Source: Candidatus Delongbacteria bacterium
GTDB taxonomy: Bacteria > UBA4055
Direction of reading: 5' to 3'
Length of the DNA: 7,267 nt
NCBI GenBank assembly: GCA_016937995.1
Contig: JAFGVM010000073.1
Coordinates: 1 to 7,267, forward strand
Position numbers and translations under genes: made by a program. The notes beneath the pieces were generated by a model. The model searched no databases, was not told the origin of the DNA, and saw only the letters and a program-made list of their open reading frames with translations. This document shows positions 1 through 6,834 of the stretch, one piece after another. The stretch's first letter is position 1. Each line of letters opens with the position of its first letter.

Positions 1-488
1 AGATCAAAATCCTCTTTGCTAAGGTCGAACAGATCAAATTCTTCAAATTCATTCGTATAGTCTATGTAAAACCTGAGCTTCTGAAAGTTTGAAGTTATGA
101 CATATTTACAACCATCCTGATTATTCTTATACCCGAAAGCCTGTTCAGTGATAAGCTTCAAATCCTTCGTCTTAGTAGATTTAAGCTCAATAACAGCAAC
201 AGCTTTCTCATCCTTCAAAATTGCACCGTCAGCTTTCCTACCATCAGACTGATTCTTATGCTCACGAACAAGGTTGAAATTATCAGCAGGCTTCAAAGTA
301 TAACCCAGAACATCCACGAATAAGTCACGCAGAAAACCGTCCTGATACTCCTCTTCCTTAAGCTCCTTTATCTGCTCTATCTTAGAATGTGAGAAGTTTT
401 TCTGAAATACCTCGTAGGCTTCGCTGACCTTGGTTTTATCAAGATGTTTAAGGAACTGCTTAATTACCGATTTTTGAAACAATGGCAT
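1..488 (-). CDS. Type IIG (Eco57I-like) restriction-modification enzyme, N-terminal part, cut by window edge
   Basis: The minus frame reads from ATG at 488-486 to the window edge without a stop (162 codons, opening MPLFQKSVIKQFLKHLD). The start matches proteins in which an amino-terminal nuclease domain precedes an adenine-specific DNA methyltransferase and target-recognition domain. Such single-chain enzymes are usually around 1,000 residues, so most of the gene lies outside. A PD-(D/E)xK-type site is visible: ADG at 86-88 (Asp87) and IELKS at 100-104 (Glu101, Lys103), preceded by the helix FLRDLFVDVLGYTL at 52-65 and followed by ITSNFQKLRFYI at 131-142. A good ribosome site (AAGGA, nine bases upstream) supports this start. 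Its four arginines use CGT or AGG, never AGA, whereas the carboxyltransferase gene at 1424 uses AGA for 15 of 18; this hints at acquisition by transfer. Seen: frame and motifs. Inferred: the methyltransferase part. It could instead be a nuclease-only protein with the same domain. Confidence 0.8.
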   Translation of the reverse strand, partial: MPLFQKSVIKQFLKHLDKTKVSEAYEVFQKNFSHSKIEQIKELKEEEYQDGFLRDLFVDVLGYTLKPADNFNLVREHKNQSDGRKADGAILKDEKAVAVIELKSTKTKDLKLITEQAFGYKNNQDGCKYVITSNFQKLRFYIDYTNEFEEFDLFDLSKEDFD

Positions 489-510: not shown

Positions 511-563
511 GAGACTCACAGGCAATTAGCCTGACAAGGGGATATATCCCCTTGTTGAGTCTC
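511..563. repeat. 53-base palindromic element forming a gap-free three-way junction
   Basis: Outer arms GAGACTCA (511-518) and TGAGTCTC (556-563) are perfect inverted repeats of eight bases. Between them lie, with no spare base, a hairpin CAGGC-AATTA-GCCTG (519-533) and a perfect 22-base palindrome ACAAGGGGATA/TATCCCCTTGT (534-555). Every base except the five-base loop and the turn of the palindrome can pair, giving a Y shape on either DNA strand or in RNA. It lies just upstream of the ribosome site of the minus-strand restriction-modification gene and would be in that gene's leader. It is probably a REP-like or miniature mobile element; a role in controlling the gene is possible but unproven. 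Confidence 0.75.
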
Positions 564-800: not shown

Positions 801-829
801 AATATATCTATGATATAATGTTTGTGCAA
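801..829 (-). promoter_or_regulatory. Predicted sigma70 promoter for the restriction-modification gene
   Basis: On the minus strand TTGCAC (829-824) is followed after exactly 17 bases by TATATT (806-801). Transcription would start near 794 and give a leader of roughly 300 bases, crossing the palindromes at 511-738 before the ATG at 488. No better -35/-10 pair was seen closer to the gene. Confidence 0.5.
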
Positions 830-854
830 ATGATTTTATTATAAAAAGAGTCTC

Positions 855-3859: not shown

Positions 3860-5905
3860 ATGGAATTAATGTCACCTGCAGGAAATTATTCATCTTTTAA
3901 AGCCGCAATAAAGTCCGGTGCAGACGCTGTATATATGGGATTAAGCCTGTTCAATGCAAGAAGACCTGCCAAAAATTTTGGATTTACCGAATTAGAGGAA
4001 ATTATTCATGAAGCCCATGAAAATAATACAAAAGTATATATTACATTAAATATAGACTTAAAATCCAATGAACTCACAGATGCCGTAAAAATCCTTCTGC
4101 TTCTTGTTAAAGTTAAAGTTGATGCTGTAATAGTCAAAGATACGGCTGTAATTTATCTGATAAATAAATATTTCCCTGAACTGGAAATTCACTTAAGTAC
4201 TCAGTTCGGGATCGCTAACTCAAAGGCAATGACAGCTGCCGGTAAATTACTGAAAGCTCAGAGAGTTGTTCTTGCAAGAGAGTTGAATTTCAATGAATTA
4301 AAAGCACTCAATAACGATGATTATCCTGAAAGAGAGATATTTATTCAGGGATCAATGTGTTATTCTTTTTCCGGAAGATGCCTGATGTCCAGCTGGAATG
4401 GCGGAAGGTCAGCTAACCGAGGTGCCTGCCAGGCTCCCTGCAGATTTTTATATAAAAAAAATGATGAGAATATCCCTGAAAGTTATTTTTCAATGAAAGA
4501 CCTTTCTCTTGCTGATAAAATTGATGTATTGAACGAACTTAATATATCAGCTTTGAAAATCGAAGGAAGATTGAAAAGCAGTGACTGGGTCGGAGAAATT
4601 ACTTCCATATACAGGGCTATACTTGATCACAGCACAGAACCAGATCTGGACGTATTACAAAAGTTCTCCGGTAGAGAACTGGCTCATGGTTTCTATGGCG
4701 GTCTTGATGACCTGACTTCAGAACAGAAGATCAAACAGGGACAGTTCTCAGATAATAAGACCGGAGATACTTCTGTAGGTAAAGGTAAATACGATCTTTC
4801 GATCATGCTTCAGAATAATAAAATAATAATCAATATTTTCTCAGATTACGGTAACATAATTGTTACTGTTCCTCATAAATGGATCATAAAGGAGAACAGA
4901 GCTATCTATTTCAGTGAGCTGGAACAGAGGATCTCAAATACTTCTTTCGGAGGTTTATTTTTAAATAAATTCACAATTAAAGATGATTTCCTTGTCACAA
5001 AATCTCAAATGAAAAATATTATTTCCGAGATCGGATCCAATATCGCTCCTCTAATGAACAGAGAGAGAAAGTTTTTAAAAAGTATAAACGTCCCCGCCGA
5101 GATCGAATCCGAGCTGAAAATAAGTTCTTCTGATATTTTTAACAGAATACCGGTAGATTTCAGGAATGCTACTACTTTACGGATCAATGCGAAAGATATA
5201 AATGGCATTTTAAAAAGCATCGGTTCCTCCTCGGTAAAAAAAGTAGTGATAGATCAGGCAGGACCTGATGATCTGGATAAAATCGTTGAGCTTTCTGAAA
5301 TTATCAAAGTGGAGATTTCTTTATTTCCTGTTCAGTTCGAGAATGATATACATGAACTTGAAGAACTGATATCGAAATTAGAACATACAAAGATAAGATC
5401 ATTTGAGATCAATGATATCGGACATTTGATGTTATTGAAGAACAGCAAAAAGCCGGTCAATGGCGGTCCTTTTATCGCTCCATATAATCATGTTGCAGCT
5501 AAATTCATGAATTCTCTGGGAATGGAAAAAGTACACATGCCAATGGAGTCGGATATAGAATGTTTAAAAGGACTTTCAGGTTCGGAAGTGAAACTGAGGT
5601 TCACTCTTTATTCAAAAATACCTTTGTTCTACACCAGAGCTCAAAATAATGATATTCATACCGGTGATAAATTTACAGACTTTCAGGAAATAAGTTCAGT
5701 GGTAAATAAGTATAAAGACATTTCTATTTACTATTCAGATGAATATTTCACTACTAACGGGATAGATCTGAACGATCTGAACGTAAATGAACTGATAATT
5801 GACCTTTCAGATGAAACTGATATAATCAAAAAATTTGAACAGCTGAAAATACATCCTGAAAAATTCAAAGGAAATAGTTTCAATCTTAAAAGAAGACTCT
5901 CATAG
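3860..5905 (+). CDS. U32 family protein (peptidase U32 / RlhA-TrhP-like RNA hydroxylation protein)
   Basis: A 681-residue protein; the opening MELMSPAGNYSSFKAAIKSG and ADAVYMG are the standard U32 start. The N-terminal barrel carries HLSTQF at 111-116, VLARELN at 137-143, and the signature region with Cys167, Cys174, Cys190 and Cys194 around GRSANRGACQAPCR (182-195); these four are likely iron-sulfur ligands. SMKD (211-214) and KIEGR (233-237) follow. After about residue 270 comes a long, less conserved extension, as in E. coli RlhA (about 650 residues), which is needed for hydroxylation of a 23S rRNA cytidine; TrhP, the tRNA relative, is shorter. Family members were first called collagenases, but RNA hydroxylation is better supported. 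Which RNA is modified here cannot be told. The ribosome site is weak (AGAG about eight bases before ATG). No clear promoter was found in 3738-3859. The stop codon overlaps the start of the radical SAM gene. Confidence 0.88.
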   Translation: MELMSPAGNYSSFKAAIKSGADAVYMGLSLFNARRPAKNFGFTELEEIIHEAHENNTKVYITLNIDLKSNELTDAVKILLLLVKVKVDAVIVKDTAVIYLINKYFPELEIHLSTQFGIANSKAMTAAGKLLKAQRVVLARELNFNELKALNNDDYPEREIFIQGSMCYSFSGRCLMSSWNGGRSANRGACQAPCRFLYKKNDENIPESYFSMKDLSLADKIDVLNELNISALKIEGRLKSSDWVGEITSIYRAILDHSTEPDLDVLQKFSGRELAHGFYGGLDDLTSEQKIKQGQFSDNKTGDTSVGKGKYDLSIMLQNNKIIINIFSDYGNIIVTVPHKWIIKENRAIYFSELEQRISNTSFGGLFLNKFTIKDDFLVTKSQMKNIISEIGSNIAPLMNRERKFLKSINVPAEIESELKISSSDIFNRIPVDFRNATTLRINAKDINGILKSIGSSSVKKVVIDQAGPDDLDKIVELSEIIKVEISLFPVQFENDIHELEELISKLEHTKIRSFEINDIGHLMLLKNSKKPVNGGPFIAPYNHVAAKFMNSLGMEKVHMPMESDIECLKGLSGSEVKLRFTLYSKIPLFYTRAQNNDIHTGDKFTDFQEISSVVNKYKDISIYYSDEYFTTNGIDLNDLNVNELIIDLSDETDIIKKFEQLKIHPEKFKGNSFNLKRRLS

Positions 5906-6834
5906 TGCAAAAATTTGACAGATTAAACAGGATCGGGGATCACTGGAAAAAAAAGTACGGTGCAAAAACCTATAAGCTTATATTCAGAGGTGAATTTACC
6001 TGTCCGAACATCGACGGTAGTCTGAGCAATAAAGGCTGTATTTACTGTAATATGAGATCCCTGGAACCTTTGATAGACAGTAAAAATATCGAAGGACATA
6101 TAAAATATCTGGAAGATAGGAATAATGCAGAACTTTTTATAGCTTTCTTTCAGGATTTTTCATCGACCTATCCGGTTCATTCCATTGAAAATAAACATGA
6201 CTATCTTAAAAAATTGTACACGAGTTCTATTGATAATGATAAAGTTGTCGGCATTTCAATTTCCACAAGACCTGACTGCATAAACACTGAAGTTCTTGAT
6301 ATCCTGGCAGAATTGCAAAAGGACGTAATAATTGAACTCGGATTACAGACAACCTGTGAAAAAGATATTAAATGGATAAACCGGGGATATGCAAACGATC
6401 AATTTATTGAAAGTGTCGAAATGATAAGATCTTACGGTTTTAATACCGTAGTGCACATTATATTAGGACTGCCAAATGAAACTGACCGGACGATATTAGA
6501 AAATGTAAAATTCATCAATGCTCTTAAAATTCACGGAATTAAATTTCACCAGTTGATGGTTTTAAAGAACACTGAATTGGAAAATATTTTCAATAAAGGT
6601 GAGGTGAACGTATTAGATATTCAGGAGTATTTCCGGAGAGTTTCGCTGTTCTTAGCCCATCTTGATAAGAATATCATTATTCACAGACTTTATGGTGACG
6701 CACCGAAAAAAGATCTAATTGAGCCTCTATGGTGTCTAAATAAAACAGGTATTCAGGATAAATTATTCGATTATCTTGAAGAGCATAATATATGGCAGGG
6801 AATGCACCCAAGACCCACAACCCATAACCCATAA
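5905..6834 (+). CDS. yhcC: YhcC-type radical SAM protein (TIGR01212 family)
   Basis: A 309-residue protein starting at GTG, whose G is the last base of the upstream TAG stop, so translation is probably coupled. The radical SAM cluster is Cys33, Cys45, Cys48 (C-x11-C-x2-C, the spaced form of this family). Other family blocks are FFQDFSSTYPVH (81-92), GISISTRPDCI (116-126), IELGLQTT (143-150), INRGY (158-162), HIILGLPNET (184-193), FHQLMVLKNT (214-223) and a final WQG (297-299). These enzymes bind a 4Fe-4S cluster and cleave S-adenosylmethionine; the substrate of YhcC is not established as far as I know. The conserved protein ends at about residue 300. The last eight residues (PRPTTHNP) and the stop TAA are supplied by the heptamer array at 6807-6890, so the native tail seems to have been replaced. 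It forms an operon with the U32 gene. No hairpin terminator directly follows. Confidence 0.93.
   Translation: MQKFDRLNRIGDHWKKKYGAKTYKLIFRGEFTCPNIDGSLSNKGCIYCNMRSLEPLIDSKNIEGHIKYLEDRNNAELFIAFFQDFSSTYPVHSIENKHDYLKKLYTSSIDNDKVVGISISTRPDCINTEVLDILAELQKDVIIELGLQTTCEKDIKWINRGYANDQFIESVEMIRSYGFNTVVHIILGLPNETDRTILENVKFINALKIHGIKFHQLMVLKNTELENIFNKGEVNVLDIQEYFRRVSLFLAHLDKNIIIHRLYGDAPKKDLIEPLWCLNKTGIQDKLFDYLEEHNIWQGMHPRPTTHNP

Follow-up and report, generated by a model that had tools for sequence, protein, structure and literature searches.

The window analysed here, 7,267 nucleotides from a Candidatus Delongbacteria bacterium, is an entire contig (C20) of a 2.75 Mb assembly that is 97% complete; the nearest named relative within its genus is the MAG "Candidatus Delongbacteria bacterium GH31". 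At its left end, an Eco57I/MmeI-type restriction-modification (RM) gene on the minus strand runs off the contig at codon 162, and its open reading frame (ORF; 488..3) matches MmeI_N (7.6e-6) and HSDR_N_2 (7.9e-5), both slightly below the Pfam cut-off. The leader side of this gene carries a 53-nt palindromic element (Table 1) that reads, on the minus strand, as outer stem, core palindrome (hpA), second hairpin (hpB) and outer stem, with the RM ATG following 22 nt on. A promoter-like site upstream of the element would, if used, place the latter within the mRNA leader.

Table 1. Features in and around the element, in window coordinates
Feature	Position	Strand	Remarks
Eco57I/MmeI-type RM gene, N-terminal part	3..488	minus	ends at contig edge; Pfam and N-terminal sequence
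Probable ribosome site AAGGAA	497..502	minus	between element and ATG; read from the sequence
Outer stem, one arm, GAGACTCA on the plus strand	511..518	minus	8 pairs with 556-563; covaries across copies
Second hairpin hpB (CAGGC-AATTA-GCCTG)	519..533	minus	5 pairs, 5-base loop; fold and covariation
Core palindrome hpA, ACAAGGGGATATATCCCCTTGT	534..555	minus	22 nt, perfect; nearly invariant within the genus
Outer stem, other arm, TGAGTCTC on the plus strand	556..563	minus	fold and covariation
Promoter-like site upstream of the element	801..830	minus	consensus match only

Several other features share the window. The segment between the element and the neighbouring tRNA (564-850) is pieced together from other repeats that are dispersed in the genus, at about 566-615 (TCATTGCGAGGA.., more than 20 copies), 648-699, 716-741 and 776-841. 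The tRNA-Leu(TAG) gene (950-1032, minus) is followed by a terminator-like hairpin (946-923), and upstream of it an exact 33-base duplication (1054-1086 and 1146-1178) overlaps a promoter-like TTGACA..TATATT. At the other end, a 7-base unit (ACCCATA/ACCCACA) is repeated about 11 times between 6806 and 6891, starting in the 3' end of the ORF at 5905-6834 and continuing into intergenic sequence.

The minimum-energy fold of the plus strand between 500 and 575 consists of the outer stem and the two hairpins with zero unpaired junction bases, every base of 511-563 being either paired or at a hairpin tip. It bears out the first-pass annotation, which had described a three-way junction fitted by every base and made of an 8-base stem, a 5-pair hairpin and a perfect 22-base palindrome, and had placed it in the leader of the RM gene, where a plausible ribosome site does lie between fold and ATG. 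As RNA, the fold has an energy of -32.8 kcal/mol, compared with -15.6 +/- 2.8 for 200 dinucleotide shuffles (z -6.14), none of which equalled it; as single-stranded DNA of the minus strand, the corresponding values are -21.0 and -5.1 +/- 2.0 (z -8.14). The first-pass annotation had held chance to be very unlikely at this completeness.

The complete 53-mer is single-copy in its home genome, where the hpA arm has one further exact copy (C56:38061-38082) and a degenerate one (C41). Exact 20-mer matches in the genome of a sister species, G002, all display the same grammar of stem, hpA and hpB. A covariance model (R1), built on an alignment of eight sequences (seven natural and one from which a nested copy had been excised), was used to search 13 genomes of the family and retrieved 22 full-length copies at E<=1e-7, seven of which had gone into building the model; 13 are located in G002, five in a second sister genome, G001, and four in the home genome. 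Full-length copies were absent from the ten other family genomes searched with R1, which yielded weak, mostly palindrome-only matches. The copies occur in both orientations and at both gene ends (after stop codons, between convergent genes, in leaders or overlapping an ORF end), next to unrelated neighbours that range from RM to housekeeping genes; 8 of about 25 genus copies are situated in RM loci. The same R1 search returned many stand-alone hairpins from G001 and G002, such as ACAAGGGGTTTCAACCCCTTGT, that have neither outer stem nor hpB and may be precursors or remnants of the Y elements.

All full-length copies keep a fixed form of 53-56 nt without any internal gene remnant, and they have diverged so that only the architecture and the palindrome core are common to them. 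Within this architecture, hpA is near-constant (ACAAGGGGAT..ATCCCCTTGT, 22 or 23 nt, with a short variable tip) and the CA/TG at the junction end of the stem is nearly invariant; the outer stem belongs to two main types, ..GTTGCA/TGCAAC.. and GAGACTCA/TGAGTCTC, its arms covarying across copies as GAGACTCA/TGAGTCTC or NNGTTGCA/TGCAACNN, and the sequence of hpB varies. The first-pass expectation for a mobile element, many near-identical intergenic copies, therefore holds as far as dispersal is concerned, but not as regards number (four clear copies in the home genome) or near-identity.

In an alignment of 24 natural copies made with MAFFT without structure, 92% of the cells pair, compared with 37-41% after sliding the 3' partner by 1-3 columns, and cells changed on both sides number 60 as against 17 +/- 4 in shuffles (0/500 as high), although the model that retrieved the copies takes structure into account and related copies do not count as independent. 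Compensatory two-sided change is found in 11 pairs of this set, including all five pairs of hpB, where 95% of the cells are paired. The regulatory alternative of the first-pass annotation, for which such changes would occur only upstream of this gene, is contradicted, since they are seen in copies at unrelated loci. RNA structures under selection normally change by way of G.U pairs, yet here the outer stem has none among 159 paired cells and hpB has 3 among 114 (3/273 together). Because G.U is nearly absent despite the two-sided changes, we infer that the structure is kept at the level of DNA rather than RNA, by folding of a single strand or by copying of one arm from the other.

One copy, on contig C95 of G002, is nested: in locus L022 (1708-1812, the arrangement itself at about 1712-1807), a complete Y folds within the hpA tip of an outer Y, in the layout ..TTGTTGCA-ACAAGGGGGATA-[CA hpA hpB TG]-TATACCGCCCTTGT-hpB-TGCAACAA. 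This single case suggests insertion into the centre of a palindrome, and another copy of the same genome (G002:C204b) looks like the deletion product of such a nested arrangement. Neither a clean empty site nor a target duplication was seen for any copy; a comparison of the paralogous loci L022 and L023, after hsdM, showed a different palindrome at the equivalent position rather than an empty site.

The element before the RM gene does not look like the recent arrival that its perfect pairing had been taken to allow. G001 has an element at the corresponding position ahead of a homologous RM start (L091:1118-1173); the two sequences are 79% identical across 119 bases that take in the RM start and the element, and G001 differs from the window by an A-T/T-A swap in hpB and in its hpA tip. 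Judging from this occupied site in a sister species, the insertion probably predates the species split or travelled with the gene. At the homologous site of G002 (L100:183-236, contig C83), a degenerate copy has lost its outer stem. In the same genome, a homology between the sequence after the element linked to a Y1 gene (see below) and the RM gene start, suggested by a multiple alignment, was set aside because only one of three pairwise comparisons scored above shuffles.

The first-pass annotation had also noted that Y-shaped elements of this type can be substrates of REP-associated (RAYT/Y1) transposases, and had advised looking for a Y1-HUH gene in the genome. One such gene was found in the home genome (C56:32618-32959); it was rejected as the mover, since it belongs to a different subfamily and is flanked by different repeats (AAAGTCCCT..AGGGACGAC). 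A candidate cognate emerged from G002, where a complete Y element extends over the 3' terminus of a Y1 gene (L029:5189-5557, minus; PF01797, 5e-9). In G003, from a different genus of the same family, the homologous gene (L033/L042) has ACAAGGGGATTAATCCCCTTGT shortly before its ATG and contains a variant palindrome in its reading frame. Profiles of these two proteins uncovered further members of the subfamily in G237, G246 and five of the 395 genomes of the phylum of a Lutibacter genome, the phylum searches around G246 and G237 covering only 2 and 4 genomes, respectively. In G237, ACAAGGGGTCATGACCCCTTGT lies on each side of the Y1 gene (L045:1435-1456 and 1847-1868) as an hpA palindrome rather than a full Y, and in-frame copies of the palindrome are present in L044 and L112-L115.

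Counted with the pattern ACAAGG-N4..16-CCTTGT, the palindrome is present next to or overlapping 8 of the 9 loci of this Y1 subfamily and at none of the 12 loci from other Y1 subfamilies (Fisher p 4e-5), L112, L114 and L115 being so closely related that the independent events are fewer than eight. Every match has a single 22-nt form with a self-complementary centre, ACAAGGRG-N6-CYCCTTGT, which is also that of hpA in the window. The full Y architecture is seen in one genus only; elsewhere, the hpA palindrome alone accompanies Y1. The catalytic elements of a Y1-HUH enzyme, HxH and a Tyr-bearing NTIEYIKNNRYKH-type helix, are present in L044 and L112-L116, whereas the Y1 genes of G002 and G237 are devoid of the C-terminal segment with the catalytic Tyr helix and appear truncated. 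NCBIfam models gave only weak REP_Tyr_transpos/IS200 matches, under their cut-offs, for the Y1 proteins. Y1 genes of other subfamilies (L034, L008/L032 and L046) have flanking palindromes of their own, namely GGAACGCATTCCTGCGTTCC, AAAGTCCCTTAGGGACGAC and the perfect 28-base TGAACCGACGATTTAAATCGTCGGTTCA.

A Y1 gene of the cognate subfamily was found neither in the home genome nor in G001. Exact 20-mer matches in Latescibacterota, Omnitrophota, Defluviitaleaceae, Lutibacter and another bacterium were set aside because their flanks form no such Y; as a search of six genomes holding the same 20-mer also yielded no Y1 of the subfamily (one weak match, 9.8e-4, is a different Y1), these 20-mer matches are treated as chance or unrelated. 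Searches of viral contigs, plasmids and phages recovered neither the Y1 nor the palindrome. Of the proposed relation to REP/RAYT systems, the dispersed Y-shaped repeat and the link of its palindrome to one Y1 subfamily are thus borne out; a cognate enzyme in the home genome is not, the cognates being found only in a sister species and other lineages.

In six of the nine genomes with this subfamily (G246 and the five from the Lutibacter phylum), the Y1 domain is found in-frame within an RM enzyme of the Eco57I/MmeI/TaqI_C type (L044:1-2286 and L112-L116), the family to which the RM ORF of the window belongs as judged by its N-terminal sequence. Alignment with Y1-free enzymes from Pontibacter and Sinorhizobium plasmids (L117 and L118; FDWQKEFYDVFAT-GGFDVVVGNPPY) places the insertion always just before the NPPY motif. 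The inserted domain retains both the HUH motif and the Tyr-bearing helix, and in five of six cases the insertion ends in residues encoded by the palindrome (NKGLQPLV, NKELQLLV or NKGFKPLV). Literature searches turned up no description of fusions between Y1 and Eco57I, which is no proof of novelty, and a Y1-HUH domain that lies together with its palindrome in-frame in RM enzymes is apparently an undescribed arrangement. A further idea, which we regard as rather unlikely, is that the RM-embedded Y1 is a working part of a defence-linked system, which would act on ACAAGGRG-N6-CYCCTTGT, including its own coding copies, and would spread or maintain Y satellites preferentially in RM loci.

The comparison with known systems is framed by literature on REP/RAYT and TIRYT systems (PMC2817692, PMC3116915, PMC3733652, PMC6006769 and PMC8266576). 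Like REP/REPIN-RAYT (TnpA-REP) systems, the elements are short dispersed palindromic units (22 full-length copies in addition to stand-alone hpA hairpins) that outnumber the Y1 genes, and a Y1-HUH gene has the same unit beside it or overlapping it. Classic REPs exceed 100 copies per genome; copy number is low here. Other differences are an architecture in which two unlike hairpins meet at a three-way junction, where REPs have one imperfect hairpin or an inverted pair; the presence of hpA in coding sequence, in-frame with the Y1 domain; and the lack of a GTAG/CGTC foot, GTAG at the 5' side and CTAC at the 3' side each occurring in 1 of 24 copies and CGTC/GACG in none, which is chance level. A cognate gene in the same genome, as expected of a RAYT, is found in G002, in truncated form, and not in the home genome.

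TIRYT units or TIRtrons are described, in portions of De Nocera 2013 (PMC3733652) and Quentin 2018 (PMC6006769), as Y1 genes with inverted, partly self-complementary flanks that lack GTAG, may overlap the gene 3' end and form moderately abundant families; their Y1 proteins belong to subclass 2.1, with a C-terminal HTH. Inverted flanking repeats without GTAG are seen at the G237 gene (hpA only), and overlap with a gene 3' end also recurs here; in contrast, the three-way junction and the nesting have no counterpart in those portions of PMC3733652 and PMC6006769. The TIRYT motif GGGGWSAS is not matched by hpA, which reads GGGGATAT/GGGGATTA/GGGGTCAT/GGGGTTGC/GGGGTTTA.

A Y1-HUH enzyme that recognises subterminal hairpins in single-stranded DNA is also typical of IS200/IS605, but the dispersed copies described here are gene-free, and the hairpin pair itself makes up the element. 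Small double-hairpin or palindromic DNA elements, dispersed and sometimes in-frame in genes, further include the double-hairpin elements of fungal and algal mitochondria and the Rickettsia palindromic elements. These reside in other hosts and are not known to have a dedicated enzyme, unlike the present element with its associated Y1.

An alternative origin of the fold as a cis-regulatory RNA leader, in which the junction 22 nt before the RM ATG would control translation or mRNA stability and the family would comprise leaders sharing one regulator, draws on the Y-like element at the equivalent spot before homologous RM starts in all three genomes of the genus, on the compensatory hpB change between the window and G001 and on the promoter-like site. 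It could also account for six copies that sit 17-30 nt before a start codon in one orientation, with hpB nearest the ribosome site, a bias that is suggestive only, as three of these are at homologous sites. Most copies nonetheless lie outside leaders, the genes downstream of copies are unrelated, and G.U pairs are nearly absent. Moreover, the G001 RM gene has been gutted (L091:1193-1441), with about 12 N-terminal residues fused to the C-terminus, while the Y in front of it is intact, which argues against the fold being maintained for that gene; the G002 counterpart lacks the outer stem, and the sole Rfam match in the window is the tRNA. We therefore deem a regulatory leader unlikely.

Palindromes arising from replication or repair (template switching, quasi-palindrome correction or fold-back synthesis), with polymerases correcting one arm from the other and no dedicated enzyme, would fit the perfect arms with their scarce G.U, and nested growth could be local. 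Such copying may account for the arms staying perfect; it leaves unexplained a single 53-nt architecture, constant in the order of its parts and in its CA/TG junction, at more than 20 mostly unrelated loci, as well as the link between hpA and one Y1 subfamily, and as a full explanation we rate it just as improbable as the leader. Least probable of all is that the copies are remnant ends of an IS200/IS605-like or other transposon whose full copy is absent, rather than a dedicated REP-like element: the two identical palindromes bracketing the G237 Y1 gene are IS-like, but the copies keep a fixed form of 53-56 nt and have no trace of an internal gene.

In summary, the 53-mer is a copy of a small, non-coding, dispersed double-hairpin DNA element of this genus, which is likely non-autonomous and REP/TIR-like and moved by a Y1-HUH enzyme. 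The family of copies, the two-sided covariation with scarce G.U, one nesting and the presence of hpA at genes of one Y1 subfamily are observed; recognition, nicking and movement by Y1 are the presumed part. An enzyme of the subfamily would recognise hpA folded as a hairpin in a single DNA strand, for instance on the lagging strand, nick beside it and move or copy the folded strand, whose single-strand processing or repair would keep the arms perfectly complementary. Since searches of the home genome yielded no cognate Y1, its element is probably no longer mobilised, and an effect on translation of the RM gene is possible but would be secondary. The element is regarded as working like REP and TIRYT systems while being a member of neither, because both the GTAG/CGTC foot and GGGGWSAS are lacking. 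On this reading of the element as a Y1-mobilised satellite, Y1/REP-type systems extend to a deep lineage of bacteria, where they show a double-hairpin architecture of a distinct kind, and the copies provide a natural data set, with two-sided changes and scarce G.U, on how palindromic DNA stays perfect. The fusion of Y1 with RM enzymes, finally, constitutes an intact and linked enzyme-substrate pair that makes the spread of REP-like repeats testable.
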